From positions 62,001 through 126,000 of the forward strand of contig JABSRU010000004.1 in the NCBI GenBank assembly GCA_013214965.1: DNA of 64,000 bases, given 5' to 3'. The position numbers and the translations under genes are program-made. The notes below the pieces were generated by a model. That model was not told the origin of the DNA and did no database searches. It worked only from the letters and a program-made list of their open reading frames with translations. This document shows, piece after piece, positions 9,090-55,552 of the stretch. The DNA is from Gammaproteobacteria bacterium (lineage in GTDB: Bacteria; Pseudomonadota; Gammaproteobacteria; Enterobacterales; Psychrobiaceae). The first letter of the stretch is position 1, and each line of letters starts with the position of its first letter.

Positions 9090-9110
9090 GATAATTCCTC
9101 TTAGCGGGGT

Positions 9111-18175: not shown

Positions 18176-18332
18176 ACATCATTGACCCACACTTTGACGA
18201 ATAAAAACTTAATTTCGCACAGTGGTATTGTGGAGGTTTTGGTTAGACTAATTATTTAACGATTGGCACTGGTATTTTAAGCGGAAATTGCTATGGTGTT
18301 GTGCTATTTATTGATTTGATTGTGGTATTTAA

Positions 18333-19571: not shown

Positions 19572-19693
19572 TGCCGATGGTCAAAGAGACGTTTAACCTT
19601 AGTCAACTTGAGTCTCAGTTGATTGAATTTTCTTTTTACTTGGCGTATTTTAGCGGATCGAAAGATTGATCCTCTAAGCTTGATGGGCTGTTA

Positions 19694-20230: not shown

Positions 20231-20284
20231 TAATTTACTTTATTAATAAAATAGACGGGGAGTATAGTGGGTTGTAGTAAGAAT

Positions 20285-20313
20285 GTAACCAATTACGCAT
20301 AGTAGCTGGTTAC
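20285..20313 (-). terminator. Hairpin behind purU copy 2
   Basis: Seven-base arms GTAACCA / TGGTTAC with a 15-base loop, 8 bp beyond the purU stop on the minus strand. No clear U-run follows, so this is at best a weak terminator closing the second sox operon. Confidence 0.4.
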
Positions 20314-20320
20314 TCAAAGA

Positions 20321-21199
20321 TTACTTGGCAAAGACGATAGTTTTTTTATCATGACGAAATATGCGATGCTCTATGTGATAACGGATAGCTCGAGATAAGG
20401 TTAAACACTCGATATCACGTCCTTTTGCTGCTAAATCTTGCGGGTAATAGCTGTGATCTACCGTTTCAACACCTTGAGTAATAATTGGTCCTTCATCAAG
20501 GTCATCGCTGACATAATGTGCTGTAGCACCAACAAGTTTTATACCACGGTCATAAGCTTGGTAATAAGGTCTTGCGCCTTTAAAACCTGGTAATAAAGAA
20601 TGATGAATGTTAATCGCTTTTCCTGATAATTTTTTACACATATCACTCGATAATACTTGCATATAACGTGCTAATACGACCAAGTCGGTTTCACAATCTT
20701 GAATTATTTCCCATACCTTAGCCTCTTGCTCAGGTTTTGTCTCTTTACTAATTGGCAGGTGGTAGTATGGAATATTATGCCATTTAGCTAATTCCTCTAA
20801 ATCCGGATGATTAGAGATGATCGCTGGAATTTCAATGTTTAAGTCACCTGTTCGATATCGATAGAGTAAATCATTGAGGCAATGGTCATGTTTCGACACC
20901 ATAATAACAACGTTAGATTTAAAGGGACTAGACGCCAATGTCCATTGCATACCAAATGCACTAGCTCGCTGATTGAACTCATGGCAGAACTGAGCGCGAT
21001 CAAACGCTTGTTCATCGTCAGGCCTAAATTCTATGCGGATAAAGAAATGCTTTTTATCCGTGTCATCAAATGAGTGAATTTCATTAATATAAAACCCTTG
21101 CTCAAACAGAAATCGAGTAACTACATCCACGGTACCCGGTTGGCTAGGGCAGTTGGCCGTTATAATGTGGGTTTGTGGTGTTGATGTAATATCGGACAT
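20321..21199 (-). CDS. purU: Formyltetrahydrofolate deformylase (copy 2)
   Basis: 292 residues, colinear with the copy at 4226-5095: ACT domain then formyltransferase domain with HHSLLPGFKGARPYYQAYDRG and AHYVSDDLDEGPII. Most differences lie in the ACT domain and linker (for example FDRAQFCHEFNQR for FDLALFEREFNER), which could mean different regulation by glycine or methionine, the usual PurU effectors. It hydrolyses 10-formyl-THF to formate. It follows soxG copy 2 by 69 bp. Unlike copy 1 it has no fdhA behind it. Confidence 0.92.
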   Translation of the reverse strand: MSDITSTPQTHIITANCPSQPGTVDVVTRFLFEQGFYINEIHSFDDTDKKHFFIRIEFRPDDEQAFDRAQFCHEFNQRASAFGMQWTLASSPFKSNVVIMVSKHDHCLNDLLYRYRTGDLNIEIPAIISNHPDLEELAKWHNIPYYHLPISKETKPEQEAKVWEIIQDCETDLVVLARYMQVLSSDMCKKLSGKAINIHHSLLPGFKGARPYYQAYDRGIKLVGATAHYVSDDLDEGPIITQGVETVDHSYYPQDLAAKGRDIECLTLSRAIRYHIEHRIFRHDKKTIVFAK

Positions 21200-21268
21200 T
21201 TTTGATCCTTTATTTTTAATAAATAGCCCGTTAAAATAATGACTCTATTAAAAAGGGCTTTATAATCT

Positions 21269-21868
21269 CTAGACAATAGTTAAACCGCATTCTTTACAGC
21301 CATGCTGGATCCACAGCCATATATAGTCGGAAAAACTCCGTCGAATAACTAATTGGAATTTGTTTTCCTCTAGTCGCAAAATATGCGCGCCTGCTTTTGC
21401 AAACGTCGTGCCGACGACTTTACCAATAGGGAAGCTCTCTAAATGAAAATCATAACCACTGGATTTTTTCATGAGTTCAATAACATGGCTACCACTCAAC
21501 TCAAGTATGGTTTGTGCACCACTAATATCGCTAACGGCAAAGTGACCTTTAAGTTGGGCGCGTAGTTTTAACTCAACATCGTATTCACTTCCTGAGCCAA
21601 CCATCACCAACCATTCATCTGGGGCGAGCCATATGATTTGAGCCAACTCACCTGTTGCGCTGGTACAGGGGGCGGTAGGAAGGTCTATTCCAAATACTTT
21701 TTTGATACCTGATAAAAAATCAACGTCTTGTGCATTGCCTCGTAAATTGAGATGACCTAAGTATTTTGATTCATGTAAGAGAACACCACCACCAGCACTT
21801 GATTGACCGACTAAACTGTCTAGTTGTGCATGGTGTAATGGTGATTCCATATTAATTGAATTAGACAT
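21269..21868 (-). CDS. soxG: Sarcosine oxidase gamma subunit (copy 2)
   Basis: 199 residues, same fold and start (MSNSINMESPLHHAQ) as copy 1, with an identical 8-bp overlap with the soxA stop. It differs from copy 1 more than the other subunits do, mainly in the first half (SLVGQSSAGGGVLLHESKYLG for DLVGQSGDGGVILHEAKFLG). The role in assembling the tetrameric oxidase is taken from the family. Confidence 0.9.
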   Translation of the reverse strand: MSNSINMESPLHHAQLDSLVGQSSAGGGVLLHESKYLGHLNLRGNAQDVDFLSGIKKVFGIDLPTAPCTSATGELAQIIWLAPDEWLVMVGSGSEYDVELKLRAQLKGHFAVSDISGAQTILELSGSHVIELMKKSSGYDFHLESFPIGKVVGTTFAKAGAHILRLEENKFQLVIRRSFSDYIWLWIQHGCKECGLTIV

Positions 21869-24800
21869 TTTGACGGTCTCCCTTTGGATCATAGAATACT
21901 GGGCTGCAAATTTCAGCCTCAACGGTGGTGCCATCACTTAATGGTAAAAAGACACTCTGCCCCTTACGGTTGATGCCACCTTTAACGACAGCAAGGGCGA
22001 ATGAGTAGCCCATACATGCGCTGTAGTAACTTGAAGTAACATGCCCAACCATTGTCATCGGAATGCTTTGGTTTGGTTCAAAGACTATTTGTGCACCTTC
22101 TGGCAAAACAAATTTTGGGTCTTTTGGCTTTAGCCCAACCATTTGTTTACGATCGTCACGTTTGTTGTCATAACGAGTCCAAGATCGTTTACCAATAAAG
22201 CTAAATTCTTTTTTCTTACCAACAACCCAATCCATGTCTAAATCTTGTGGTGTGACTGAACCATCAGTATCTTGACCAACAATAATAAAGCCCTTTTCAG
22301 CGCGTAGAATATGCATGGTTTCAGTGCCATAAGGTGTGATATTAAACTCTTTGCCAGCTGCCATTACTGCTTGCCAAGTATGCATGCCATAATTAGCTTG
22401 AACGTTAATTTCAAATGATAATTCACCGGTGAATGAGATTCGGAATATCCGCGCTTTAACACCCGCAACGTTGGCTTCAATCCAGTCCATATATTTAAAG
22501 TTATCGTTGCTTACATCAATATCACATATTTTTTCTAACACCTTACGACTATTAGGACCTGAAATAGTCATGGTTGACCAATGATCGGTGACGGTTGAAA
22601 AGTAAACTTCAAGTTCTGGCCATTCTGTTTGATGCCATAATTCTAACCATTGCAACACGCCAGCAGCGCCGCCTGTGGTGGTGGTCATAATAAAGCGATT
22701 TTCGTCAAGACAAGCAGTTACACCATCATCAAAAACCATGCCGTCTTCTTTACACATCACACCATAGCGACATTTTCCAACGGCTAATTTGCTCCATGGG
22801 TTAGTGTAAACACGGTTTAAAAATTCACGAGCATCTTTGCCCTGAATATCAATTTTACCTAAGGTTGATGCATCTAGAATACCGACACTATTTCGGGTCG
22901 CCAAACATTCACGTTCTAGTGACTGTTGCATCGTTTCGCCCGCTTGTGGGAAATACCATGGACGCTTCCATTGACCGACGTCTTCAAATTCAGCGCTATT
23001 ATCGAGATGCCATTTATGCATCGCGCTAAAACGAACAGGATCAAATAAATGCTTAACGTCGCTACCAGCCAGAGCACCAAAGGTAGTTGGTGTATACATT
23101 GGACGGAAAATGGTAGTACCCGTCTCTGGAATAGTTTTGCCCAGAGATTTGGCGGTAATCGCCATGCCGTTAATGTTGCCTAATTTACCTTGATCAGTTC
23201 CAAAGCCGAGTGCGGTGTAGCGTTTAACATGCTCTATTGACTCAAAGCCTTCGCGGTTTGCGAGCTCGATGCCAGCAGCTGTCACATCATTTTGATAATC
23301 GACAAACTGCTTGGGTGCTCGGCTTGTCCGTTTGCTGTGTGGTATGTGGAACAACGCCATTGAAGCATCTTCTTGTGGATCGACGATATGTGGCTGCGAG
23401 CCTTCATAGCGTCCTTCACCTTTGTCTGCCGCTTGTGCAGCTTTTGCCCCAGTAGAAAAACCATCGTTTATCACTTTGGATAATGAATAAACTCCCTCTA
23501 AACCGCCACAGATATGTTGTGCTTGAACCGTTTCACCCGGAACAAACCCCGCGATATCATCCTTCCATACTGGGCGAGACCCCGTATGTGATGAAAGGTG
23601 TATTACCGGACTCCAACCACCAGAGCTAGCAACGGTATCACATGAAAAGTGTTTAGCTGAACCGGTAAGACAGTGATTATTCACATTGATTGGTGCGATA
23701 TCGACACCTTTAACGCGTTTGCTGCCTTTAACATTAATCACACCATGACCAAATATGATATCGATGTCCAATTGCTTAGCTTGTTTAACTAGCTCACCAT
23801 TTGATGTCGCACGCGTATCAACAATAGCAATGACCTGTCGCCCTGCCTGATGCCAATCAATCGCCGTTTTATATGCGTTATCATTAGTGGTCATTAACAC
23901 TAGTTCGTTACCTGGCACCACCTCGTAACGATTTATGTAGGTCGAGACAGCATTGGCTAACATACACCCTGGCACATCATTATTGCCATAAACTAAAGGG
24001 CGTTCGTGAGCACCTGTCGCTAAAATCACTTGTTTTGCTCTTACTTTATGCATTCGCTGGCGAATCGTCTTCGATTTATGTTCACCGAGGTGATCGGTGC
24101 AGCGCTCATTGATGCCAAGTAAATTATGATCGTAATACCCAAAAACGGTACTACGTGGCAGCAATAACACATTGTCCATATTTGAAAGTTTTTCGACGAT
24201 TTTTTCTACCCAAAGATTAGGTAGCTGACCGTCTATTTGCTGTGTGCTGCATAAAAGGTGACCGCCAAATTCATTTTGTTCATCGCTAATAATGACTCGG
24301 GCACCAGTGTCGGCCGCCGCTAAGGCCGCGGCCAAACCTGCAGGGCCGGCACCTACGATCATAACATCACAATGGTGATGAATTTTATCATAGCTATCTG
24401 GGTCTGCTTGGGTTGGACTTGTGCCTAACCCAGCGCCTTTACGGATTAAATGCTCGTAAGACATCCATAATGATTGTGGATACATAAAGGTTTTATAATA
24501 AAAACCAGGGGGCATCATTGAACCGCCCACTTTGCCTACCGTTGACATTAAATCAAAGTCGACATTCGGCCAGCCATTTGTCGACGTTGCGACTAAACCT
24601 TGATAAAGCTCTGTTTGAGTCGCTCGCGGATTAGGGATTGTGGTGGCTTGTGTTGAGCCCACTTGAAAAATTGCATTGGGCTCTTGTGAGTCGGCCGTGA
24701 TGATACCGCGTGGACGTGAATATTTAAAACTACGACCGACGACATTAACACCATTAGCAAGCAGGGCAGAGGCAACAGTATCTCCTTCGTATCCTTGATA

Positions 24801-24884
24801 TTCTTTACCGTTGAAAGTAAAGCTTAAAATACGGCTACGATTAATGTGTTTGCTTTTTGCTGCAATACGATTAACTTGTCTCAT
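21861..24884 (-). CDS. soxA: Sarcosine oxidase alpha subunit (copy 2)
   Basis: 1007 residues with the same domain order as copy 1: ferredoxin-like region, NAD Rossmann fold (VMIVGAGPAGLAAALAAAD) and C-terminal folate domain. The N-terminal half carries most substitutions, for example SKHINRSRILSFTFNGKEY, and the linker near residues 480-500 is reworked (AAQAADKGEGRYEGSQPHIV). The folate half is nearly identical in protein while silent sites differ widely. It overlaps soxD by one base (TAATG) where copy 1 uses ATGA. Confidence 0.95.
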   Translation of the reverse strand: MRQVNRIAAKSKHINRSRILSFTFNGKEYQGYEGDTVASALLANGVNVVGRSFKYSRPRGIITADSQEPNAIFQVGSTQATTIPNPRATQTELYQGLVATSTNGWPNVDFDLMSTVGKVGGSMMPPGFYYKTFMYPQSLWMSYEHLIRKGAGLGTSPTQADPDSYDKIHHHCDVMIVGAGPAGLAAALAAADTGARVIISDEQNEFGGHLLCSTQQIDGQLPNLWVEKIVEKLSNMDNVLLLPRSTVFGYYDHNLLGINERCTDHLGEHKSKTIRQRMHKVRAKQVILATGAHERPLVYGNNDVPGCMLANAVSTYINRYEVVPGNELVLMTTNDNAYKTAIDWHQAGRQVIAIVDTRATSNGELVKQAKQLDIDIIFGHGVINVKGSKRVKGVDIAPINVNNHCLTGSAKHFSCDTVASSGGWSPVIHLSSHTGSRPVWKDDIAGFVPGETVQAQHICGGLEGVYSLSKVINDGFSTGAKAAQAADKGEGRYEGSQPHIVDPQEDASMALFHIPHSKRTSRAPKQFVDYQNDVTAAGIELANREGFESIEHVKRYTALGFGTDQGKLGNINGMAITAKSLGKTIPETGTTIFRPMYTPTTFGALAGSDVKHLFDPVRFSAMHKWHLDNSAEFEDVGQWKRPWYFPQAGETMQQSLERECLATRNSVGILDASTLGKIDIQGKDAREFLNRVYTNPWSKLAVGKCRYGVMCKEDGMVFDDGVTACLDENRFIMTTTTGGAAGVLQWLELWHQTEWPELEVYFSTVTDHWSTMTISGPNSRKVLEKICDIDVSNDNFKYMDWIEANVAGVKARIFRISFTGELSFEINVQANYGMHTWQAVMAAGKEFNITPYGTETMHILRAEKGFIIVGQDTDGSVTPQDLDMDWVVGKKKEFSFIGKRSWTRYDNKRDDRKQMVGLKPKDPKFVLPEGAQIVFEPNQSIPMTMVGHVTSSYYSACMGYSFALAVVKGGINRKGQSVFLPLSDGTTVEAEICSPVFYDPKGDRQNV

Positions 24885-25180
24885 TATTTCACCTCTTGAC
24901 TAGCAGTGACACTAGGCTGTTGGCCCATTTTGTATGTTTCCATGATTTGATAAGTCACTGTATTTCTCGTCATGTTAAAATATTTGCGACAACCATGAGC
25001 ATGCAGCCATAGTTCGTGATGTAATCCGCGTGGATTTTTACGGAAAAATAAATAGCGTGCCCATTGCTCATCGCTTAGTTCTTCGGGGTTTAACGGACGC
25101 ACTATATGTGCCTGTCCAGCTGGACTAAACTCTTCTTCTTCGCGCTGCTCTTCACAATAAGGACATTTGATAAGTAACAT
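24884..25180 (-). CDS. soxD: Sarcosine oxidase delta subunit (copy 2)
   Basis: 98 residues. Zinc ligands Cys6 and Cys9 (KCPYC) and the HAHGC pair are preserved. The tail ends ASQEVK instead of ASEKGQS. It lies between soxB (12-bp gap) and soxA (1-base overlap). Confidence 0.93.
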   Translation of the reverse strand: MLLIKCPYCEEQREEEEFSPAGQAHIVRPLNPEELSDEQWARYLFFRKNPRGLHHELWLHAHGCRKYFNMTRNTVTYQIMETYKMGQQPSVTASQEVK

Positions 25181-25192
25181 AATTAATTCCTC

Positions 25193-26443
25193 TTAGTGGG
25201 CAACACCGGCTGCGCCGTGTTCATCAATGAGTTCGCCAGATGTAAAGCGATCAATACTAAATGGTTTAGCGAGAGGGTGTGGATCATCATGGGCGATAGT
25301 ATGTGCAAACACATGGCCCGCACCAGGTGTTGCTTTGAAGCCGCCAGTACCCCAACCGCAGTTAAAATAAAGTCCTTTAATATGGGTTTTAGAAATAATA
25401 GGACAAGCATCTGGACAGGTGTCAACAATCCCGCCCCATGCACGATTGAGGCGAACCCGACTAAAGATGGGAAACATTTCAATAATAGCGGCAATCGTGT
25501 GCTCAACCACGTTGAATGAACCGCGCTGTCCATAGCCCAAGTAACCATCAATACCAGCGCCAATCACTAAGTCGCCTTTATCTGATTGACTGATGTAGCC
25601 GTGTACATGATTTGACATCACGACGGTATTAAGGATTGGTTTTAACGGTTCCGATACCATCGCTTGTAGAGGGTGAGATTCAAGCGGTAATTCCATGCCA
25701 ACCATTTTTGCGATAACAGTCGAGTTGCCAGCGGCAACACAGGCTACTTTCCCAGCAGAAATAAAACCACGATTAGTCTCAACGCCAACGACTGCATCAT
25801 CTTTACGACGGATCCCTGTTACTTCTGTTTGTTGAAGCAAATCAACACCTAAAGCTGCAGCTGCGCGAGCAAAGCCCCAGGCAACTGCATCATGACGTGC
25901 AGTACCTGCACGGGCTTGCCATGAAGCCCCCAATACTGGGTAACGGGCATTTTTAGAGCAGTCTAAAATAGGTACCATTTCTTGAATTTGGGCCGTGGAG
26001 AGTACTTCACCGTCGATACCGTTTAGGCGGTTAGCGTTGACACGTCGCTCAATATCACGCATGTCTTGCAACGTATGACCAAGATTGAGCACACCTCGCT
26101 GGCTAAACATTAAATTATAATTAAGATCCTGAGCCAATCCTTCCCATAATTTTAATGAATGCTCATATAAATGAGAAGCTTCATCCCACAGATAATTAGA
26201 ACGCACTATCGTTGTGTTACGTGCTGTGTTACCACCACCTAGGTAGCCTTTTTCAACCACAGCGATATTAGTGATGCCATGTTCTTTAGCTAAATAATAG
26301 GCAGTTGCTAGACCATGCCCACCACCACCGATAATCACTACGTCATAGTGTTTTTTAGGGATTGGGTTATTCCACACCCTTTGCCAGTTTTCGTGGTAGG
26401 TTAATGAATGTTTTAACAAACCAAATCCAGAATATTGTTGCAT
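25193..26443 (-). CDS. soxB: Sarcosine oxidase beta subunit (copy 2)
   Basis: 416 residues, 20 differences from copy 1 counted by eye. The FAD motif and the FMN-linking His ([12 protein letters not shown]) are intact, so this copy should be active. Substitutions cluster around residues 195-250. It follows glyA by 105 bp on the same strand, reproducing the glyA-soxBDAG-purU order known in Pseudomonas. AAGGTAAGGG supports the start. Confidence 0.95.
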
Positions 26444-26475
26444 GCCCTTACCTTTCTTATTTTAATTCTATAGCT

Positions 26476-26513
26476 GGGTTAATGACTTTTAATACTTACC
26501 TTGTCATTAACCC
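26476..26513 (-). promoter_or_regulatory. Inverted repeat between glyA and soxB copy 2
   Basis: Perfect 11-base arms GGGTTAATGAC (26476-26486) and GTCATTAACCC (26503-26513) with a 16-base spacer, about 33 bp before the soxB start. It may be a regulator site or a partial terminator/processing hairpin that tunes soxBDAG relative to glyA. The other sox copy has a different palindrome in this position. Confidence 0.5.
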
Positions 26514-26548
26514 GTTAGTCGATCTAGTGCTCGACATTTTATATATTG

Positions 26549-27802
26549 TTAGCCATATACAGGGTTAGCATCACACAAGCCCAGTACCTTGCCCTTTACT
26601 TCAGATATCATCTGCTCGTTATTGATGTCGTCTAATACATCACAAATCCAACCTGTTAACTGTGCGACGTCTTCGCTGTTAAATCCTCGACTTGTAATCG
26701 CAGGTGTACCAATTCGTAAGCCACTGGTGACGAAAGGAGACTGAGGATCGTTAGGTACTGAATTTTTATTAACCGTGATATTGGCACGACCAAGTGCTGC
26801 ATCCGCATCTTTTCCGGTAATACCTTTGTTGATTAAGTCGAGTAAAAATAGATGATTGTCGGTGCCACCCGAAACAACGCTGTATCCCCGTTGCTGGAAA
26901 GCTTCGGCCATTACTTGCGCGTTTTTGATTACTTGTTGTTGGTATTCAACATAACCAGGTGATAATGCTTCTTTAAATGAAATAGCTTTAGCGGCTATAA
27001 CGTGCATTAATGGGCCGCCTTGGCCAGCAGGGAAAACGGCTGAGTTTAGTTTTTTTGCTAACTCTTCATTGTGTTTTGCTAAAATTAGACCACCACGAGG
27101 GCCGCGTAATGTTTTGTGCGTTGTTGTGGTGACAACATCAGCAATCGGCACTGGATTCGGGTATAGTCCGGCAGCCACTAATCCTGCGACATGAGCCATA
27201 TCAACAAATAGCCATGCGCCAATGCTGTCTGCGATATCACGAAAACGTTGCCAATCGACAATTCGTGAATAAGCTGAAAAGCCAGCAATGATCATTTTGG
27301 GTTGATGCTCATGAGCAAGACGCTCAACTTCTTCATAATCGATTTCACCCGTTGCTTCATTTAGCCCATATTGTACTGAGTTATAAATTTTTCCTGAGAA
27401 ACTCACTTTAGAACCATGTGTTAAATGACCGCCATGAGCAAGGCTCATACCCAGTACTGTTTCACCTGGTTGTAATAGCGCCATAAATACAGCTGCGTTA
27501 GCTTGTGAACCTGAATGGGGCTGTACATTTGCGTAGTCAGCACCAAATAGCTCTTTGGCGCGGTCAATTGCTATTTGTTCAATGGTATCTACATGCTCAC
27601 AGCCGCCGTAATAGCGTTTTCCCGGATAACCTTCTGCATACTTATTAGTTAGTTGGGTGCCTTGTGCTTTCATAACGCGTGCACTGGTGTAGTTTTCTGA
27701 GGCGATAAGTTCAACATGATCCTGTTGGCGTTTGTCTTCTGCTTGAATCGCGTGCCAAATGTCATTGTCGAAACCGGCTATCTCATCATTTTTATAAAAC
27801 AT
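26549..27802 (-). CDS. glyA: Serine hydroxymethyltransferase
   Basis: A 417-residue PLP enzyme of normal length. The substrate region [15 protein letters not shown] and the PLP-lysine motif [15 protein letters not shown] (about 220-234) are intact. It interconverts glycine plus 5,10-methylene-THF with serine. Standing at the head of soxBDAG-purU, it uses both products of sarcosine oxidase, and the serine made can be deaminated by SdaA (34890-36257). It is probably a dedicated catabolic isozyme like Pseudomonas GlyA1, with a housekeeping glyA elsewhere; the latter cannot be seen here. Confidence 0.95.
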
Positions 27803-27839
27803 TTTTCTTTCTCCGCGGCTAAATACGCCATTGTGATTT

Positions 27840-27869
27840 AATACTAGCTTGAGGATAAGCTAGTATTTT
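27840..27869 (-). terminator. Hairpin between nhaC and glyA
   Basis: Perfect 11-base arms AATACTAGCTT / AAGCTAGTATT with a 6-base loop. It is 28 bp beyond the nhaC stop and 38 bp before glyA. The T-run is on the plus-strand side; on the minus strand only TATTAAAT follows, so read-through from nhaC into glyA is possible. Confidence 0.6.
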
Positions 27870-27895
27870 TGTGTCTGTACTGGTGGGATAAAAGC

Positions 27896-29347
27896 CTATC
27901 CAGACTCTTCTTCTTGTTTATATCTTTCTAGTTCAGCATCAGAAATTTTTGGTGAAAATCGTCCAAGTGCGGCGTAACACAAACCGATGACTGGTGATAA
28001 CCAACACGCGAATGCTAGTGGAATGTAGAGTAGATTCTCCACATTACCATCGCTAATGCCTAATCCTAGAGCGGTGATAACAAAGGCACCACCTGCATTC
28101 CAAGGTACCAGCGGAGAAATTAAGGTGCCGCCCTCTTCGATGGCTCGTGATAGGTTTAGTTTTGAATACCCTTGTTTGACATAAGCTGATGAAAACATAC
28201 GGCCGGGTAAGGCAATAGAAAGATACGGGTCGCCAGCAACAAGATTAGTGGCAATGGCTGTTGTAGTTGCTGAAGCTTGTAAGCCGAAAAAGGAATTAAC
28301 ACGGCGTAGCATGACTTCAATAATGGTATCGAGACAATGAGTACGCTCAAGTGCGCCACCAAAACCTAATGCAATAATAACCAAGGTGATAACCCAAGTC
28401 ATCGATTGCACTCCTCCTCTATTTAACAGACCATCAATTTCAGCAATGCCAGTTTCAATTTTGTATCCTGATTGCATAAAGTTAAATACTTCATGCAATG
28501 AAGCGTCTTGAACAAACATAGCGAGTAGTGCGCCAGACAATACGCCTGCAAATAATGAGGGTAAGGCAGGCATTCTTTTTAGTGCAAGAATAATGACAAT
28601 TAACGGTGGGAGTAACAATAACAAGGAGAGGTTAAAATTACTTTCGAGGCCGTTCGTGATAGCTTCTATTTTTGCGAAGTCGACATCGCCTGATCCAATA
28701 AAATTAAACCCAACGATTAAATAAATAGTAAAAGCAATCAGCATTGCAGGTACTGTTGTTGGCATCATATTACGAATATGATCAAAGAGGTCTACACCGG
28801 TGACCGCTGGTGCTAAATTGGTTGTGTCAGAAAGTGGGGATATTTTATCGCCAAAAAAGGCACCCGATACGACAGCTCCTGCAGTCCAATACATTGGGAT
28901 ATCAAATCCTGACCCGATCCCCATCAGGGCAAGACCTACGGTACCAGTGGTACCCCAAGATGTTCCCAATGAAACAGAGACAACAGCACATAACAACATA
29001 CCTGCCGCAAGGAATACTTCTGGATTTAATATCGTTAATCCATAGTATATCAACAATGGGACGGTGCCACTGGCAATCCAAACGCCAACAATCATGCCCA
29101 CTGTCATTAAAATTGCAATAGAAGGGAGTCCAACACGAATCACGTGCATTACACCACTTTCGATGTCATCCCAGCGATAGCCGCGAAACCATGCGAATGT
29201 CGATGTGATCGCTATGCCAATTGCTAACGGAATGTGCGGGGTAAAGTCTCCGAAGTAAAATAATTGAATCGCTAGTAGTGCCAGAGTCAAAATTATCGGC
29301 ATTATTGCCATAATGAAACTGGGTTTTACATTTTTATTATTTGTCAT
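27896..29347 (-). CDS. nhaC: NhaC family Na+/H+ antiporter-type carrier
   Basis: 483 residues and about 12 hydrophobic helices. The family signatures GTSWGTTGTVGLALMGIG and GAFFGDKISPLSDTTNLAP (about 163-181) are intact. NhaC proteins exchange Na+ for H+, and relatives such as MleN couple this to organic acid exchange. AGGAGA before the ATG is a strong ribosome site. The upstream region holds three TTTACA half-sites arranged as in the response-regulator/porin region, so this carrier is probably controlled by the neighbouring two-component system. The placement among glycine/serine genes raises the possibility of an amino-acid-linked role, which is only inference. Confidence 0.88.
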   Translation of the reverse strand: MTNNKNVKPSFIMAIMPIILTLALLAIQLFYFGDFTPHIPLAIGIAITSTFAWFRGYRWDDIESGVMHVIRVGLPSIAILMTVGMIVGVWIASGTVPLLIYYGLTILNPEVFLAAGMLLCAVVSVSLGTSWGTTGTVGLALMGIGSGFDIPMYWTAGAVVSGAFFGDKISPLSDTTNLAPAVTGVDLFDHIRNMMPTTVPAMLIAFTIYLIVGFNFIGSGDVDFAKIEAITNGLESNFNLSLLLLLPPLIVIILALKRMPALPSLFAGVLSGALLAMFVQDASLHEVFNFMQSGYKIETGIAEIDGLLNRGGVQSMTWVITLVIIALGFGGALERTHCLDTIIEVMLRRVNSFFGLQASATTTAIATNLVAGDPYLSIALPGRMFSSAYVKQGYSKLNLSRAIEEGGTLISPLVPWNAGGAFVITALGLGISDGNVENLLYIPLAFACWLSPVIGLCYAALGRFSPKISDAELERYKQEEESG

Positions 29348-29436
29348 TTTTTTCTCCTGTTGTTTATCAGGCGATGTGTAAGACTCTAATTTTACTTGCT
29401 GTCTTTTTCATCACGCAGGAGACACTAAAGGATAGA

Positions 29437-29474
29437 TGTAAACTCAGGATTAATAACTTGTAAAAAGATGTAAA
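29437..29474 (-). promoter_or_regulatory. Triple TTTACA element upstream of nhaC
   Basis: Read on the minus strand, TTTACA half-sites end at 29469-29474, 29459-29464 and 29437-29442, i.e. offsets 0, 10 and 32, with TTTACAAGTTATTAATC in the middle. The same core sequence and offsets occur at 33544-33581. It is oriented toward nhaC and ends 90 bp from its start. Direct half-sites about one helical turn apart are how OmpR/PhoB-type regulators bind. Confidence 0.7.
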
Positions 29475-29579
29475 CGAGATTAACAATTTAATAACGTCGC
29501 CGATTTTAGGATATATAAGGAAATCCTAGAGAGGCAGTGATTATAAGAGCTTGGGTTTATTCCTGCTTCACAATGACAT

Positions 29580-31928
29580 TTAATTGTTGTAGGTAATCGC
29601 CTTGGCCAAAGTTAGTTCCATGACTGAATCTAGCTGTGAGCTATACTTAATATGACCATCTTGAGCACTGTGTTCTAATTCTCGTAGTAGGTTACTTGCT
29701 TGCGAAAAACCAAGCATGTCACAAGCTCCAGCAATTTTGTGCGCTTGGTGGGCAACCTCATAATGGTCGTCGTTGATAAGGCTTTGTTGAAGTGTGGGCC
29801 AAAGTTTTTTTAAGTTATTACAAAAACTAAGCATTAACTTTGAGAGCTTAGCTGGACCTAAAATATGAAGGTGAGTATCAATCATTGATGGATCAAGTAG
29901 TGGGTAATCTTTATGAATATCGATATGTGGTATGTTCTCTGGAGAGCTCGTCTGTTGGGGATCTAGTACGCGGGCTATAGCGTCAAGTAGCAATTTTTGT
30001 TTAACGGGCTTTGCGACGACATCTTGTAATCCTGCATTAAAATAATCATGAATGTCGTCTGGGCGAACACTGGCTGTCAAGGCAATGATAGGGGTGTCGT
30101 AGTTACAAGATTCTATACTCTGGCGAATTTTAGCACTAATATCGAGCCCGCTTAGCCCAGGCAAATGCATATCCATCAGTATGATATCAAAGGTCTTATC
30201 ACTCGTTATAGTAATAGCATCATGACCATTATCAGCTAATGTTATTTGATGCTGCTCAAGTAAACCTATCACAACTTGTTGGTTTATTTCGACATCCTCA
30301 ACCAGTAGTATTTGCAGTACGGGTAGAGTCGGTAGTGTGGCTTCAATTTTATATTGATCTGGCTTGGCTTTTTTTAGTATGACCTCAACCCAAAAAGTAC
30401 TGCCTTGACCTAATATACTTTCGACGCCTATCTGCCCACCCATTTCTTGACTTAGTTGACGACAAATTGAAAGACCAAGGCCGGTGCCGCCAAAACGTCG
30501 AGTAATTGATTCATCGGCTTGCACAAACCGCTCGAAGATACGCTCTTGCAATGCTGGTTCGATACCAATACCACTATCCTGAATTGAAAAACGAATTCGG
30601 TCATGCTTATCATTTTTTTCTTGATGAACGATACGTAGAAGTACCTCGCCACGATCGGTAAATTTAATCGCGTTGGCGAGTAGATTAGTTAATATTTGAC
30701 GTAAACTGCCAGCTGCATCATGGTAACAATAGCACGTCGTATTGGTTTCAAGCTTTAGCTGTAATTTTTTTTCATCGGCTTTAGGTTGCATTAGGCTGAT
30801 AATACTGTGTGACAGTTCATCGAGGGAAAAAAATGATTCAGCACAGACATATGCTCCTTCCTCTAGTTGTGCATATTGAAGTACATGATCAAATGTCTCA
30901 AGCAATGCTTCGGTTGAATCATGCAATATTTTAGTTCTATGGCGCTGTTGTTGGCTAAGTTCATTGTTTTCTAGTAGCTGAATCATACCAAGCATGCCAT
31001 TCATCGGGGTGCGAATTTCATGGCTCATCGTGGCTAAAAATTGCGATTTTGCGTTATTGGCTTGTTCAGCGACTTCTTTGGCTTGCTGTAAGCTCATTGT
31101 CCGACGTTCTACCATTTTTTGCAGTTGGTCGCGGTTGTAGCGCAATGCTTGTTGTTCAGTTTCGCGGCGATTAATATCATAACGAATTGCCAAGCGCATA
31201 TTGTTTAGTGCGGTGACTAATTGATTTAGTTCATCTGGCGGGCTGGGTTGTCGTCGAATTAAGGTTAAGGGGGATTCTAGTTCGCCGTCTGCTATTGCTT
31301 GGCTGTAGTGTGCCATACTCTCTAGGTGCCGGGTGATTAGTCGCTGTAAAATGAACATAATCACTAACATGATGAGTGCTACCAGTAATGTTTGGTTCAA
31401 TAATATACTAAAACCGGTTCGAAATAATCGTGTATGGACGGCAGCTAGATCGGTGGTAACAATTAATGTCCCCAGTTGACGGTTGTTTTTTAATTCGTTG
31501 TTGTTACCTAAGTTAGCGATACGTTTATTTGGTGTGTTAAGTTTAAAGCTTGTTTTGATGACTTTATCTTTTGTGTCTATTACGTGTTTAGGTAAACGGA
31601 TAAGCGTATGGCGAGTATGATCAGTCAGTTCAATGCTCACAATATCTGGCAGTGCTTTGATGCCTTTAAGTTGTAATTCAAGTTGTGCTTGATCAAAATC
31701 CCACATACTACGAGCTAAGCTAGCAAGATAGCTAGCGTGAATTAATTGGATTTGCTGATCAATATTTCTCATTTCTCGTCGATAGTCGAACGAAATTTGT
31801 AGTACCGTGGAAAGCACAATAAAAAAACAACTACATAGTGTTACATAAAGCATCATTCGATAACTTAACGGATGATCTTTGGCATAACTTAATAAACGGC
31901 GCCAGCCTAAAATGTTAGAGAGCTTCAT
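29580..31928 (-). CDS. Hybrid sensor histidine kinase with receiver and Hpt domains
   Basis: 782 residues. In order: TM1 (about 25-45), a periplasmic sensor of about 130 residues, TM2 (about 178-198), HAMP, coiled coil, HisKA with the phospho-His in [12 protein letters not shown] (about 302), an ATPase domain (NLLANAIKF at about 415, then GTGLGLSI), a receiver with phospho-Asp in MDMHLPG (about 583), and an Hpt domain with [11 protein letters not shown] (about 729). This is the TorS/ArcB-type four-step phosphorelay. It overlaps the binding-protein gene by 14 bp, so the periplasmic protein is likely its ligand-presenting partner, as TorT is for TorS. Signal unknown. Confidence 0.9.
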
Positions 31929-32715
31929 GATTGAGATTAACGTTGGTTTGAGAGTTTAGGTAAATGTTACTATATTTTTGCTGTAGTTTTTTTATTGTCC
32001 CATTGCGATGAAGTTCTGTTAGTCGATGATTAATATAAGGTAAATGTTTCTCTAGTTCACTGTGACGACCTATAGCAAGGTAATAATATTCGGTGGTTAA
32101 CTCAAATGGTGCTGTGATAATTTGTTGGGTGTATCCAAATTTTTTAGTTTGTAATTTACCGCTCATCGTACCTAATGGCATGAAATTAATTCTACCATAA
32201 GCTAGCTTTTTAAAATTTTGTCGCCCCTGAGAAACATATTCAATATGATTGTTGCTAGCAATAAACTTGTCTAACTTGTCGCCAAAACTATCACCAAAAA
32301 GTAAGCCCACTCTTTTTCCTTTTAAATCATCAAGTGAATGATACTTTTTGCTTTGAACTGAATGAACAAACACACCAATGGGATCGGAGACAATATGTTG
32401 TTTGCTAAAACTAAAATCGGGCTCTCGACTGGCTATTCGATAGGCAGCGACAACAATATCGGCATGGCCATTCTTAACTTCCCACAAACAGCGCTTCCAA
32501 TTACCGACAATATCTAACTTAACTTGATAGCCTAATTCACCAAATAATAATTTAACAACTGTTGGTGCAATACCAATTAATCGTTGTTGTTGAACCCAAG
32601 ACACTGGTGGATAATAAGGATGACCACATGCGATAAGCTCTCGCGCTTGACTATTAACGGGCAAGAAAATTAATCCGATGATCAATAAACAATGCGCTAA
32701 AAATGATGGTTTCAT
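31915..32715 (-). CDS. Periplasmic solute-binding protein, family 3
   Basis: 266 residues with a signal peptide ([24 protein letters not shown]) and the family-3 amino-acid-binding fold: [57 protein letters not shown] and [16 protein letters not shown]. No ABC permease or ATPase is nearby. The gene overlaps the response regulator by ATGA and the kinase by 14 bp, so it is more likely a sensory binding protein that presents a ligand to the kinase than a transport component. The type of fold and the serine/glycine gene context make a small amino acid or betaine-derived compound a fair guess. Confidence 0.8.
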
Positions 32716-33440
32716 ACTACATCGAGAAGTTTAGGTGTAAACAAATAGCCAGCGCCATGCACTGTCAAAATCAAACGTGGGTCGGTTGAGTCGTCACCAA
32801 GTTTGCGGCGTAATCGGCCTATGAGTACATCTACAGTTCGGTCGGTAGGAACCCATTCTCGATTGCGGATTTGGTCAAGAATTTGATCTCTGCTCATGAT
32901 GTGTCCAGCATGATTCATTAAGCTTTTTAGTAGCTGGAATTCCCCTTCTGTCAATTGGACTGTCGCTTCGTTTTCATCGATAAGTTGTCGTCTTACAGGG
33001 TTTAATTTCCAGCGATCAAACGCTTTTAAATTGTGATCATTATTATCCATCGACTTGGCCTGCTTGCACAGTTTGACTCGACGAATAAGGCTTTTTGCTC
33101 TAGCTAGAATTTCTCGGGGATTAAAAGGTTTAGTGACGTATTCATCTGCTCCGCACTCGAGTCCGATTAGGCGGTCAACTTCATCTTGACTACCTGTAAC
33201 TAGAATTATCCCTACTTCGTTATTAACGCGTATCTCTCTGGTTAAGGTCAAACCATCTTTGCCGGGCATGCGGATATCGAGCAGAATCAGATCGATAGTT
33301 TCATAAGTTAGCACTGTTTCTGCTTCTTCAGCCGTTGCTGCGCATAAAACGTCGTAGCCTTCATTTTCAAAATAACTACTTAACACTTCGCGCGTTAGTT
33401 CGTCATCATCTACCACTAAAATCTTGGTTCCTGTCGGCAT
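32712..33440 (-). CDS. OmpR family response regulator (TorR-like)
   Basis: 242 residues. The receiver has acidic pocket Asp11-Asp12, phospho-Asp55 in LILLDIRMPGKDG and the conserved Lys in YVTKPFNPRE. The C-terminal winged helix (about 145-238) includes SRDQILDQIRNREWVPTDRT and the wing VHGAGYLF. It is the first gene of the regulator-binding protein-kinase operon and is divergent from the porin gene. The 286-bp gap between them holds the TTTACA element, so autoregulation and control of the porin are both likely. Confidence 0.92.
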   Translation of the reverse strand: MPTGTKILVVDDDELTREVLSSYFENEGYDVLCAATAEEAETVLTYETIDLILLDIRMPGKDGLTLTREIRVNNEVGIILVTGSQDEVDRLIGLECGADEYVTKPFNPREILARAKSLIRRVKLCKQAKSMDNNDHNLKAFDRWKLNPVRRQLIDENEATVQLTEGEFQLLKSLMNHAGHIMSRDQILDQIRNREWVPTDRTVDVLIGRLRRKLGDDSTDPRLILTVHGAGYLFTPKLLDVV

Positions 33441-33520
33441 TATAAGTGTCCCCTCATTCTTATGCTGATACCTTGTTCAGTCTAGCGATATATTACACCC
33501 CGTCAAGCGACGTAACCAGG

Positions 33521-33582
33521 TTGTAAACAAGAACCTCAACCTGTTTACAATTATTTACAAGTTATTAATCTTGGGTTTACAT
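33521..33582 (+). promoter_or_regulatory. TTTACA element between response regulator and porin genes
   Basis: Plus-strand TTTACA at 33544, 33554 and 33576 (offsets 0, 10, 32), with TTTACAAGTTATTAATC in the middle exactly as upstream of nhaC. In addition TTGTAAACA (33521-33529) and TGTTTACAA (33542-33550) form a perfect 9-base inverted repeat with a 12-base spacer, absent at nhaC. The direct set points toward the porin gene (145 bp away); the inverted half-site would face the regulator operon. Confidence 0.7.
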
Positions 33583-33726
33583 TCTCTCGTTAGTGTTTTC
33601 ATCCTGGTGGAAAAACATTCAACAATACCGCTTTATTTATCGATGTTTGGGTAAGTATTTTGTTTAAGTTGGGTATATCCACAGTTAATAAAAATAAGAA
33701 TCCAATAACAAACCAAAGGAAAAAAG

Positions 33727-34794
33727 ATGCAATATCTAAGATTAAAGTCAGTATTACTTCCGTTAACTATAGCATTACCTATTTTTACTGCTCATGCTGG
33801 TGATGAAATGGCAAAAGCGACACTGCAAGATAAATTAAATGAAATTCAAACGCGTTTGGCGCAACTTGAACACAAAGAAGCAACCGCGACACCACAAAAT
33901 AAAAATACAACCGTTAGTTTATATGGATCGCTACGACCAACCTTTGGTGTGACTAGCAGCGATGCTCAGGACAATTGGGATGTTGGCGATGCGCTTTCGC
34001 GTATCGGTGTTGCTGTTAACCATCAATTAAGTGATGGCATCACGGGCTTTGCTAAAGGCGAGTTTAAAGTTCAAATACAAGGAGATGCTCATTTTGGCGA
34101 CACACGTAAGGCGTATGTTGGTATTAAAGGGGATTTTGGACGTGTAGCAATAGGTAAACAAGATACAACACACTTTGCGATTATTGCAGGACCTGTTGAT
34201 ATCTTTAACCGTGCTAATACTCCATTAGCTTATGATGATGTTAGTTTGTTTCGTCAGCAAGAAATGATTTCTTACCGCAAGTCATTTGGTAATGTCGAAT
34301 TTAGGGCTGAAGCACAATTTAAAGGTGATGACGCGCTTAACGCCGGCAGTGACTTAGTTAATGCTGGTGTTAAATATCAGGGCGATGATTATAGCTTAGC
34401 AGTTGCATATTTAAGTCGAGATTTAGCAGGGGTTGATGAAAATACCTTAGGTGTTTCAGCGAGTAAAAATTTTGGCGATTGGTATATCGGTGCTGCATAT
34501 TTAGATCTTAAACGTAATGTCATTGATGCAGACATTCAAACGTTTGATCTTGTAGTAACTTATTCAATTAATGAACAATATAAGGTGTTATTTGGCGCTT
34601 CAAAGCTTAATGATGAGCTAATTAGTAGCGTATCAAATGATGTGACTCGTTTTAATACCACGCTGGAATGGCAAGGTAGTAAAGACTTTCGATTATTTGT
34701 GGAATATCAAAATAATAATTATTCTACCCAGAATGAGAAAGATAGCGACCAGTTAATGGTAGGGATGCGTTATAACTTCAATTATCAGTTTTAA
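33727..34794 (+). CDS. Gram-negative general porin
   Basis: 355 residues with a signal peptide (…IALPIFTAHA), a short coiled-coil stretch (LQDKLNEIQTRLAQLEHKE, about 31-49) and a 16-strand-type barrel with TTVSLYGSLRPTFGVTSSDA, GKQDTTHF and a terminal Phe in YNFNYQF. AAAGGAAAAA precedes the ATG. Trimeric diffusion channel of the outer membrane by family. It follows the TTTACA element in the direction set by the half-sites and precedes sdaA, so it may admit the amino acid that sdaA degrades. Confidence 0.8.
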   Translation: MQYLRLKSVLLPLTIALPIFTAHAGDEMAKATLQDKLNEIQTRLAQLEHKEATATPQNKNTTVSLYGSLRPTFGVTSSDAQDNWDVGDALSRIGVAVNHQLSDGITGFAKGEFKVQIQGDAHFGDTRKAYVGIKGDFGRVAIGKQDTTHFAIIAGPVDIFNRANTPLAYDDVSLFRQQEMISYRKSFGNVEFRAEAQFKGDDALNAGSDLVNAGVKYQGDDYSLAVAYLSRDLAGVDENTLGVSASKNFGDWYIGAAYLDLKRNVIDADIQTFDLVVTYSINEQYKVLFGASKLNDELISSVSNDVTRFNTTLEWQGSKDFRLFVEYQNNNYSTQNEKDSDQLMVGMRYNFNYQF

Positions 34795-34801
34795 TGATGA
34801 T

Positions 34802-34834
34802 CATGAAGTGGTGGGGGATCCCTATCACTTCGTG
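34802..34834 (+). other. Strong hairpin between porin and sdaA
   Basis: A 15-bp stem (34802-34816 with 34820-34834, including three G-T wobbles) closed by a 3-base loop, beginning 7 bp after the porin stop. No T-run follows, so it more likely protects the porin mRNA 3' end or attenuates read-through into sdaA than fully terminates. Confidence 0.55.
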
Positions 34835-34889
34835 AGTGTAATGCATATTGCACAGTTGTGATTTTCATTTGTATTAAAAGAGAAATTTT

Positions 34890-36257
34890 ATGATTAGTGT
34901 TTTTGATATGTTTAGCATTGGGATCGGTCCATCGAGTTCTCATACGGTTGGGCCGATGCGAGCGGCATTTCGTTTTAGTCAATCACTTGAGCACCAAGGT
35001 ATTTTGAGTAAAGTTAGTCACATAAAAACTGAATTATTTGGTTCACTGGGGCAAACAGGCATCGGACATGGTAGCGGAAAAGCGGTGATATTAGGGCTAG
35101 CTGGTTTTGAACCTGAAACTATAGATCCTGAAATGATCGACGTCTTTCTTTTACAGGTTAAGGAGACTCAGCGGCTTTCATTGCTAGGGAAATATGACAG
35201 TTTATTTTCAAGGCAGAATGCTATTATTTTTCATCGTCGCAAAACATTACCTGCCCATGCAAATGCAATGGAACTAAAAGCTTTTAATGGCGATGAATTG
35301 CTATTTAGTAAAATTTATTATTCGGTGGGTGGTGGCTTTATTGTTGATGAAAAAGAGATAGTTACTTTAGATACTTCACTCAAAGATAATTCAAAGTATG
35401 TATTTTCCAGCGGTGTTGAATTGTTGAAGCTATGCAAAGCTAATGGCTTTAGTGTTTCTTGCTTGATGATGGAAAATGAAAAACAACTGATACCAGAACA
35501 ACAAGTACACAATCAATTAGCCGAAATTTGGCATGCGATGAAAAGAAGTGTTGAACGGGGTTGTCGCCGTGAAGGCATTTTACCCGGTGGATTAAAGCTA
35601 CGACGCAGAGCTCCTTCTTTACTTCGGAGTCTCAAAGCCAATGGCAATAATTGTGTTGACCCATTAATAGCAATGGACTGGGTCAATCTGTTTGCCATGG
35701 CTGTTAATGAAGAAAATGCAGCTGGAGGACAGGTTGTTACCGCGCCAACCAATGGTGCCGCTGGTATTATTCCTGCCGTATTATGTTATTACGATAAATT
35801 TGTTGAGCCTGTTACTGATGCTATCGCAGTACGTTACTTGTTAACAGCTGCTGCCATTGGCATTCTTTATAAGAAAAATGCATCGATTTCAGGCGCCGAA
35901 GTTGGCTGCCAGGGAGAAGTTGGTGTTGCGTGCTCTATGGCTGCGGCGGCTTTAACAGACATAATGGGAGGTACAGTTGATCATGTAGAGAGCGCTGCAG
36001 AAATTGGCATGGAGCATAATCTAGGTTTAACCTGTGATCCTGTTGGAGGCTTGGTACAAGTACCTTGCATCGAGCGAAATGCAATGGGAGCAATTAAAGC
36101 AATTAATGCCTCAAGACTAGCGCTTCGAGGGGACGGTAATCATAAAGTGTCGCTCGATAAGGTAATAAAAACAATGTGGGATACAGGCAATGATATGAAA
36201 AGTAAATATAAAGAAACTGCTCGGGGTGGTTTAGCGGTTAATGTCATCGAGTGTTAA
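34890..36257 (+). CDS. sdaA: L-serine ammonia-lyase (iron-sulphur type)
   Basis: 455 residues, a single-chain SdaA/SdaB enzyme of normal length. The N-terminal beta domain has the serine-binding GPSSSHTVGPMRAA; the alpha domain carries the cluster cysteines in CQGEVGVACSMAAAAL and in CDPVGGLVQVPCIERNAMG. It converts L-serine to pyruvate and ammonia, the exit step of the betaine-sarcosine-glycine-serine route encoded here. AGAGAAA precedes the ATG. Located 95 bp behind the porin, it is probably co-controlled by the TTTACA element. It converges on folE with a shared terminator. Confidence 0.95.
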   Translation: MISVFDMFSIGIGPSSSHTVGPMRAAFRFSQSLEHQGILSKVSHIKTELFGSLGQTGIGHGSGKAVILGLAGFEPETIDPEMIDVFLLQVKETQRLSLLGKYDSLFSRQNAIIFHRRKTLPAHANAMELKAFNGDELLFSKIYYSVGGGFIVDEKEIVTLDTSLKDNSKYVFSSGVELLKLCKANGFSVSCLMMENEKQLIPEQQVHNQLAEIWHAMKRSVERGCRREGILPGGLKLRRRAPSLLRSLKANGNNCVDPLIAMDWVNLFAMAVNEENAAGGQVVTAPTNGAAGIIPAVLCYYDKFVEPVTDAIAVRYLLTAAAIGILYKKNASISGAEVGCQGEVGVACSMAAAALTDIMGGTVDHVESAAEIGMEHNLGLTCDPVGGLVQVPCIERNAMGAIKAINASRLALRGDGNHKVSLDKVIKTMWDTGNDMKSKYKETARGGLAVNVIEC

Positions 36258-36289
36258 TTTAAATAACCGATAGAAATCATTTTATATCG

Positions 36290-36321
36290 ATAGCCCGCAT
36301 AGTTTGCGGGCTAGTTGTTTT
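36290..36321. terminator. Bidirectional terminator between sdaA and folE
   Basis: Nine-base arms TAGCCCGCA / TGCGGGCTA with a 5-base loop, followed by TTGTTTTATT on the plus side, located between the convergent stops. Confidence 0.8.
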
Positions 36322-36326
36322 ATTAC

Positions 36327-36986
36327 TTATCTACGGTGTAAGAACTCACTACGGGTTGCCGGATTACTTTTAAATATCCCACCTAGCGCTGTGGTCGTCG
36401 TTGAGCTGGTTGAATCCATGACGCCCCGTGATTTCACGCAATAATGGACCGCATCCATCGTGACGGCAACATCTTTGGTTTCTAGTAATGTTTGCAGAGC
36501 TATGAGGATTTGTTGAGTCAAACGCTCTTGAACTTGTGGACGCTGGGCAAAAAATCGCACGATACGGTTAATTTTTGATAAACCGATGATTTTTTTTTGC
36601 GGCAAATAAGCCACTGTTGCCATGCCGTCAATAGTAACAAAATGGTGTTCACAGGTACTGGTCACAGTAATGTCTTGCACCTTGACCATTTCATCAACCC
36701 CCATTTTGTTATCGATCACAGTGATCTTAGGGAAGTTTTCGTAGTTGAGTCCTGAAAATATTTCATCGACATACATTTTGGCGATACGTTGTGGAGTATC
36801 CTCAAGGCTGTCATCGGTAAGATCCAATGACATTAAATTAAGGATTTCTCTCATGTGATATTCGATACGATCCTTTCGTTCGGCAGGACAGACGTCCAAT
36901 GAACGCATAGGGGTTTCTATGCCTTTATCTTCAAGCGCTGCTCGCACTTTTAACGCTGCTTCACTTAATGCCAAGATAGTCTCCAT
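36327..36986 (-). CDS. folE: GTP cyclohydrolase I
   Basis: 219 residues closely matching E. coli FolE. Landmarks are [15 protein letters not shown]-type sequence ([15 protein letters not shown]), [13 protein letters not shown] with zinc-binding Cys and His, [16 protein letters not shown] and the C-terminal VHYCVKSRG. It makes dihydroneopterin triphosphate, the first step of folate synthesis, relevant here because folate carries the C1 units from sarcosine. [13 protein letters not shown] at 36986 aligns with the E. coli start; a GTG nine codons earlier is the alternative, and neither has a good ribosome site. Confidence 0.93.
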
Positions 36987-37564
36987 CAATATACAACGGG
37001 GTGACGAGTTCACTAATTAGCAAGCACCGAACACCATAAAACAATTAATAGTGAAGAATACCTACTTTTGAAGTAAATTGAAATCTTGTTTAGCAAACAA
37101 TCAAATTAAATGCCGTGTTATTTAGGCTTATAACTTTAAGTGGAATGGCCGTATTTAACTACCTATGCTTAGGTTTGACCATAAGCCGTGTGACTCGCTG
37201 AGCGATTAGGGGTGGTTGAATGTCGTTATCCATCCCATCTATTGAGGGTATTATTTGGCTTTGAGTAAAGGGCACTGAGGCTTCTAAGCTGTCGTTTTAA
37301 TCACTAGGGAAGTCATTATGATTAAACGCCTTCAGAGACTAAAAAGCTAGCGATGATACTTGCTATATATGTCATTATTAAACGAGAATGCGTCGATAAG
37401 GATTGTTGTTTTTATGAGGACTTTAGGAAAGATGTATGATGTCGAATTTTTCATATCCTTATTAGCTTAGTCGTTCTTTTTGTACGATGTTGTTTGGCGT
37501 GTATCTATTTTAGTTTTGGTGACAAAGGTTGGGTCGGTGGTGGCTATGTTCAATATTTAGATTC
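36987..37564. other. Gene-free stretch between folE and the polysaccharide export operon
   Basis: 578 bp with no convincing gene. A frame of about 40 codons ending at 37569 (…VCRC-type hydrophobic stretch then FSFGDKGWVGGGYVQYLDS) reads like a small membrane peptide but has an upstream stop and no ATG, GTG or TTG near its beginning. The folE promoter must lie at the left end; the export operon's terminator at the right end is not obvious. Confidence 0.5.
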
Positions 37565-55502: not shown

Positions 55503-55552
55503 ATGGTATAAGATACTGTTTATTAAATCCTGAGACGATTAGTTAGTTGTAA

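Follow-up and report, generated by a model that had tools for sequence, protein, structure and literature searches.

The stretch of DNA considered in this study (hereafter the window) comprises 64,000 nucleotides from a gammaproteobacterium of the Psychrobiaceae (assembly GCA_013214965.1, contig JABSRU010000004.1, positions 62,001 to 126,000). It contains three overlapping genes, for a response regulator, a periplasmic binding protein of the SBP_bac_3 family and a histidine kinase, flanked on both sides by an array of TTTACA boxes. One array precedes nhaC, which encodes a transporter; the other precedes a porin gene followed by sdaA (Table 1). An earlier reading of the letters alone (the original prediction) proposed that the regulator encoded between the two arrays controls nhaC, the porin and probably sdaA, giving a compact regulon for the uptake and breakdown of serine or a related amino acid. 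I consider it quite probable that the element represented by these arrays serves a phosphorelay of the TorR type as operator and promoter, and that this relay turns on nhaC and porin-sdaA together.

Read directly, the minus strand from 29474 to 29437 is TTTACATCTTTTTACAAGTTATTAATCCTGAGTTTACA, oriented toward nhaC (start 29347), and the plus strand from 33544 to 33581 is TTTACAATTATTTACAAGTTATTAATCTTGGGTTTACA, oriented toward the porin gene (start 33727). What had been described here is all present: three TTTACA boxes at offsets 0, 10 and 32 in each array, an identical 17-base core, and an orientation of each array toward the gene it precedes, on the minus strand for nhaC and the plus strand for the porin. 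In both arrays a TAGTGT hexamer begins 15 bases past the start of the third TTTACA. The window contains two exact copies of the 17-base core, and the rest of the 4.25-Mb genome adds none. The exact pair TTTACA-N4-TTTACA is found in the whole window only at these two sites; with up to two mismatches there are 10 such pairs against 14.1 expected, so it is the exactness that is remarkable and not the pair as such. The full 0/10/32 pattern, again with up to two mismatches, has two matches in the whole genome, both of them here and both perfect (control 0). The agreement between the two arrays is evidently not a matter of chance. Searching the genome for the core with up to three mismatches is uninformative, giving no enrichment (38 matches versus 72 for the reversed pattern), and a loose core match at 55537-55553 in the window was set aside. 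A scan of window positions 18000-37000 with Rfam gave no matches at the gathering score, hence no known RNA between the genes. Generic scans for sigma-70 promoters (41, versus 47.1 in shuffles) and for terminators (15, versus 14.8) were not used.

Table 1. Regulatory elements and genes of the nhaC/porin-sdaA locus. Coordinates are positions in the window.
Feature	Coordinates	Strand	Basis or remarks
nhaC element	29422..29474	-	TTTACA 5' ends 29474, 29464, 29442; -10-like TAGTGT 29427-29422; score 36.0
porin-sdaA element	33544..33596	+	TTTACA at 33544, 33554, 33576; -10-like TAGTGT 33591-33596; score 36.0
Inverted half-site TGTAAA	33522..33527	+	22 bases upstream of first box of porin element
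Response regulator, OmpR/PhoB family, TorR-like	32712..33440	-	best NCBIfam model TorR; tree
Periplasmic binding protein, SBP_bac_3	31915..32715	-	4-base overlap with regulator gene
TorS-like histidine kinase	29580..31928	-	CHASE5, HAMP, HisKA, HATPase, receiver, Hpt; TIGR02956
nhaC, NhaC-type transporter (predicted by family), predicted target	27896..29347	-	family/model match
porin (Porin_4), predicted target	33727..34794	+	domain match
sdaA, L-serine ammonia-lyase, predicted target	34890..36257	+	model match; in Psychromonas L051 the element stands immediately ahead of sdaA
glyA, perhaps downstream in nhaC unit	26549..27802	-	model match; co-transcription putative
soxB, sarcosine oxidase beta	25193..26443	-	model match
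soxA, sarcosine oxidase alpha	21861..24884	-	model match
purU, formyltetrahydrofolate deformylase	20321..21199	-	model match

To what extent the element extends beyond this genome may be judged from other loci that encode the regulator. A search of the genome collection confirmed 485 loci, of which I took the best 80 and studied the first 57 (L047-L103), whose regulators are 56 to 87% identical; the 23 others (L104-L126, 36 to 40% identity) were left out, save for three that served as outgroups in a tree. L041-L046 do not enter the upstream counts, being other kinds of locus or lying on the same contig (L042 on that of L069). NhaC, at 60% identity or more, is present on the stretch in 41 of the 57 loci, and these together with the congener G004 provide 42 nhaC upstream regions. 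The predicted conservation before orthologous nhaC genes holds for 22 of the 42, which carry the 0/10/32 array at a shuffle frequency below 0.01 (L074 weakly), and fails in the rest, considered below. The array, with a -10-like TA(G/C)NNT beginning 15 bases past the start of the last TTTACA, precedes nhaC in Colwellia, Psychromonas, Amphritea, Neptuniibacter, Oceanimonas, Zobellella, Thauera, Aromatoleum and Pseudomonas. In the last three genera the first letters of the boxes vary (TGCACA, ATCACA, ATTACA), and the ACA cores and the spacing are kept.

When 19 of these promoters are aligned, every one has ACA in the first and second boxes, and 18 have it in the third. All 19 share T at +47, A at +48 and T at +52 of the -10, whose third letter is G save for a single C. 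The 19 were picked by their match to TTTACA at 0/10/32, which biases the box columns and leaves the -10 columns unbiased. A TGTAA lies near the position of the inverted half-site in 12 of them, the window's nhaC promoter not included. Among the three-box spacings tried, 10/32 was the best (23 of 44 regions, median 1); among spacings of a pair plus -10, 22/15 and its twin 32/15 tied at 21 of 44 regions, the next reaching 5 and the median being 0. Over nine genomes the 0/10/32 array with two mismatches gave 20 matches versus 7 for the control, 14 of them at these promoters. The two copies in the window might be supposed to stem from a recent local duplication of the upstream region, with no regulatory role, as their identical core would suggest. 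The preservation of boxes, spacing and -10 over about ten genera, Betaproteobacteria among them, while most of the letters between the boxes vary, makes this exceedingly improbable.

The spacing has a counterpart in the tor promoter. The torC boxes of E. coli K-12 lie at -111, -101, -80 and -58 from the torC start, so that boxes 3 and 4 are 22 bases apart, and TAAGAT lies eight bases past box 4. Excerpts of two papers give the tor box sequences (PMC9239176) and place a motif, TTGCT(nnnn)AAGAT, over the torC -10 (PMC10845959). The order decamer, 12 bases, decamer, 8 bases, hexamer is found in E. coli torC, in the tor locus of the present genome, in that of the congener G003 and at both window sites, with the provisos that the layout was imposed in this comparison (shuffles reached the scores of the window sites in 1 and 2 of 500 cases) and that the -10 assignments outside E. 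coli are putative. The predicted element, then, has the layout of a tor promoter: its key pair is 22 bases apart and its -10 lies eight bases past the last decamer. The boxes are not the same. The consensus is CTGTTTACAT here, with TTTACA as the core in the window, and CTGTTCATAT in tor, a difference at 2 of 10 positions of the decamer. Single boxes of the two systems can nonetheless coincide, since the downstream tor box of G003, TTATTCACAT, has TTCACAT at its end, and the Pseudomonas loci of the present element have TTCACA as their third box.

The proteins encoded between the arrays bear the same mixture of likeness and difference. That the regulator belongs to the OmpR family, as predicted, is borne out by scores above the cut-offs for both Response_reg (102.2 bits, cut-off 30.2) and Trans_reg_C (89.2, cut-off 26.2). 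With the TorR model NF008034 it scores 250.8 bits, less than the equivalog cut-off of 275, yet this is the best of 102 matching models; the kinase likewise matches TorS best, reaching 435.3 bits with the model TIGR02956, where the equivalog cut-off is 676.5. The genome's own tor locus, complete and separate on contig C62 (L045, G000:C62), encodes TorR, TorS, TorT, TorC, TorA and TorD, all above their cut-offs (TorR 375.8, TorS 941.4, TorT 395.0 with a cut-off of 310), and it is there, with their own torR, torS and torT, that torC, torA and torD are found. The window regulator lies outside the TorR clade in the tree, a tree for which long branches were warned of, and the four TorR rows form a branch of their own (support 100/99). 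Overall, the system resembles TorTSR of E. coli in having a TorR-like regulator, a TorS-like kinase, a separate periplasmic protein and a regulator gene divergent from its target. It differs in its family 3 binding protein, E. coli having TorT, and in its predicted targets, a transporter, a porin and sarcosine and serine catabolism as against trimethylamine N-oxide (TMAO) reductase. One could imagine that the authentic TorR of this genome, responding to TMAO, drives these genes as part of a true Tor regulon, given the complete tor locus, its promoter of the same layout and the likeness of the boxes. With a dedicated regulator of a separate clade encoded between the sites and following the element from genome to genome, I judge this very unlikely.

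Regulator, binding protein and kinase genes are adjacent in 55 of the 57 loci; in one of the two exceptions (L060) the binding protein gene is cut off by the end of the contig. TorT is not among the model matches listed for the binding protein. Its structure model (predicted local distance difference test, 88.4) finds mostly amino acid binding proteins as top Foldseek matches, and the modeled fold is of the amino acid type, which names no ligand. R97 is invariant in 41 sequences, and G182, nearly invariant, occupies in the alignment the position of an aspartate in the solved relative 4zv1. An arginine at the position of R97 and the aspartate of 4zv1 presumably hold an amino acid by its carboxylate and ammonium groups. 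A site that has lost the aspartate would be suited to an N-methylated ligand, a weak hint as to what is bound. TRAP transporter genes were seen near the regulator in the two loci scanned for them (L054 and L059), and genes of like size occur in other loci.

The specificity of the element was assessed with a matrix built from the 19 promoters; when one of these was scored, the members of its genus were omitted from the matrix. All 19 training sites score between 22.7 and 35.2. In 2.47 Mb of strand (both strands, with some overlapping loci: L045 twice, L042 with L069, L157 with L159), 30 distinct sites score 24.3 or more and the next match 17.4; L074, outside the training set, did not reach 24. 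The sites precede nhaC (23), a porin gene (5), sdaA (1, in Psychromonas) and a DJ-1/AraC-type gene (1, in L082 at 20383 on the minus strand). The match at 17.4 (Amphritea L057, 14689-14714) may be a weak real site, because it adjoins another DJ-1/AraC-type gene, and the two cases hint at a regulatory cascade. The exact pattern of two boxes plus -10 occurs four times in 369 genomes of the class, two of them in the present genome.

DJ-1/AraC-type genes also adjoin nhaC or the regulator in loci of Aromatoleum, Thauera, Pseudomonas, Amphritea and Oceanimonas, so that a regulator of betaine and sarcosine catabolism like GbdR or SouR, instead of the TorR-like one, might be what binds the element. 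GbdR and SouR of Pseudomonas act in the same pathway, the catabolism of betaine and sarcosine. They are cytoplasmic AraC-type sensors and are not known to involve a phosphorelay or a periplasmic sensor. The idea is improbable in view of a spacing that equals that of tor promoters to the base, and of box arrays that stand just upstream of the TorR-like regulator gene in 10 of 12 Oceanospirillaceae-type genomes. Even the AraC gene of L082 looks like a target and not a binder, although it could possibly control itself.

The arrays of the Oceanospirillaceae-type genomes are of a second kind, with offsets 0/11/21. Allowing two mismatches, the 12 genomes contain 11 such arrays (control 0), two genomes having none. 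Ten, judged by their coordinates, lie just upstream of the regulator gene and face away from it, which may reflect autoregulation. The eleventh, in G069, precedes nhaC on a contig other than the regulator's, and although outside the training set has a matrix score of 24.3. This unlinked site provides the strongest reason to assign the element to the regulator itself and not just to its surroundings. An element that tracks the regulator, and that stands directly before sdaA in Psychromonas, makes it likely, so far as sequence can tell, that the regulator between the sites controls nhaC, the porin and sdaA, as was originally proposed.

What the regulator may respond to is suggested by the genes. 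Besides those of Table 1, the neighborhood contains, farther off, gbcA, gbcB, a BCCT transporter gene, fdhA and a second copy of soxA/soxB, and together these genes cover the conversion of glycine betaine to pyruvate by way of sarcosine, glycine and serine. To go by gene order, nhaC may lead a longer unit running through glyA and sox to purU. Within a set of 58 genomes (the present one included), all three that have the regulator (at least 59% identity) also have a close NhaC, and none of the 55 others does; SoxA is found in the same three and in 2 of the 55 (5 of 58 in all). In 29 genomes hand-chosen among those with the regulator, 27 have soxA. From the co-occurrence of NhaC and SoxA with the regulator, I infer that sarcosine or a near compound is the likeliest signal. 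The regulon as originally conceived is therefore well supported, with a change of subject: the sox and gbc genes point to catabolism of sarcosine and glycine betaine and not of serine alone.

Several observations weigh against this reading. Many of the loci are closely related, so that the counts are not independent. Twenty of the 42 nhaC upstream regions lack the element despite the presence of the regulator, 18 in the group of Marinomonas, Maribrevibacterium and Marinobacterium and two in Neptunomonas. In L065, nhaC and not the binding protein gene follows the regulator. Six of 14 Oceanospirillaceae-type genomes with the regulator have no NhaC at an E-value of 1e-100, and of the nine NhaC genes in the other eight, only two are preceded by an array. 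The two, in G069 and G063, belong to three close NhaC genes (78 to 82%), the third of which, in Neptunomonas (82%), has none; nor have the six at 60 to 62%. Six of the 20 matches over nine genomes look like chance. The pattern of two boxes and -10, with two mismatches, gives 4 matches in the present genome and 6 in the control, and in Psychromonas G061 16 versus 15, hence is unspecific in AT-rich genomes at that level. A wider regulon in the present genome was considered on the strength of two further loose matches and rejected, since they are indistinguishable from chance by the same control. Two of the 29 chosen genomes (G058 and G075) have no soxA at the threshold used, and in 37 of the 57 loci none of glyA, sdaA, sox and purU lies on the stretch examined, some contigs ending early. 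By eye, many of the Marinomonas loci without an array (in the range L076-L102) share a stretch upstream of nhaC that is similar to TTCACATTGTTCATACAAAGTATTACGACTTGTTTGTGAA and may be a divergent form of this regulator's operator.

On balance, a switch of the TorR type very probably controls the transporter, the porin and the enzymes of sarcosine and serine use, in marine and some other bacteria. It might work as follows. Taking the role of TorT, the amino-acid-type binding protein would sense a small molecule in the periplasm, sarcosine or one near to it (glycine betaine, dimethylglycine, glycine or serine), and signal through the TorS-like kinase. The phosphorylated regulator would then bind the two boxes 22 bases apart and one or more boxes upstream. 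With the downstream box standing in for a -35, RNA polymerase would be activated at the -10 eight bases past the last decamer. Transcription of nhaC, possibly continuing into glyA, sox and purU, and of porin-sdaA would in this way switch on uptake jointly with the conversion of sarcosine to pyruvate via glycine and serine. A more speculative picture, which I think somewhat less likely than not, is that two TorR-type systems run side by side in the cell, separated by a difference of about two letters in each consensus box. One would be the complete true TorTSR, the other a relay for sarcosine, dimethylglycine or betaine that arose through changes in its sensor (including loss of the aspartate), its boxes and its targets, with NhaC as a sarcosine carrier. 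The analysis offers a candidate regulator, operator and -10 for the use of betaine and sarcosine in marine bacteria, as well as NhaC-family proteins as candidate carriers of sarcosine or related compounds. Two TorR-type systems in one genome, with promoters of the same layout and consensus boxes two letters apart, would also amount to a natural experiment in the separation of paralogues.

A locus of the same type has been partly described in Colwellia psychrerythraea 34H. As given in the passages of PMC3691474 consulted, an island glyA-soxBDAG-purU has the genes for NhaC (CPS_2476) and a porin (CPS_2472) beside sox, along with a serine dehydratase gene (CPS_2471) that is called truncated. They name putative regulators of the AraC, XRE and GGDEF types, mention GbdR, and leave the substrates of the porin and of NhaC unknown; they contain no such element, and the term "two-component" occurs 0 times in the text (PMC3691474). 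Open-licence papers in PubMed Central, judged by titles and the beginnings of abstracts, yielded no description of the present system.

Some further features of the window may be mentioned. The soxA/soxB pair is duplicated (5767-10361 and 21861-26443), with SoxA proteins that are 89% identical. A duplicated sox operon is reported in Colwellia 34H as well (PMC3691474). The gap between nhaC and glyA contains a strong hairpin of 11 pairs (27840-27867; fold of the whole gap, z -2.91), followed on the plus strand by a run of T. Given the strand of that run, the hairpin is perhaps an attenuator or processing site within the unit. Finally, a gene of the Qnr family of pentapeptide repeat proteins lies at 15384-16040, scoring 338 bits with the general Qnr model, above its cut-off of 240, and 374.1 bits with the QnrVC model, under its cut-off of 460.

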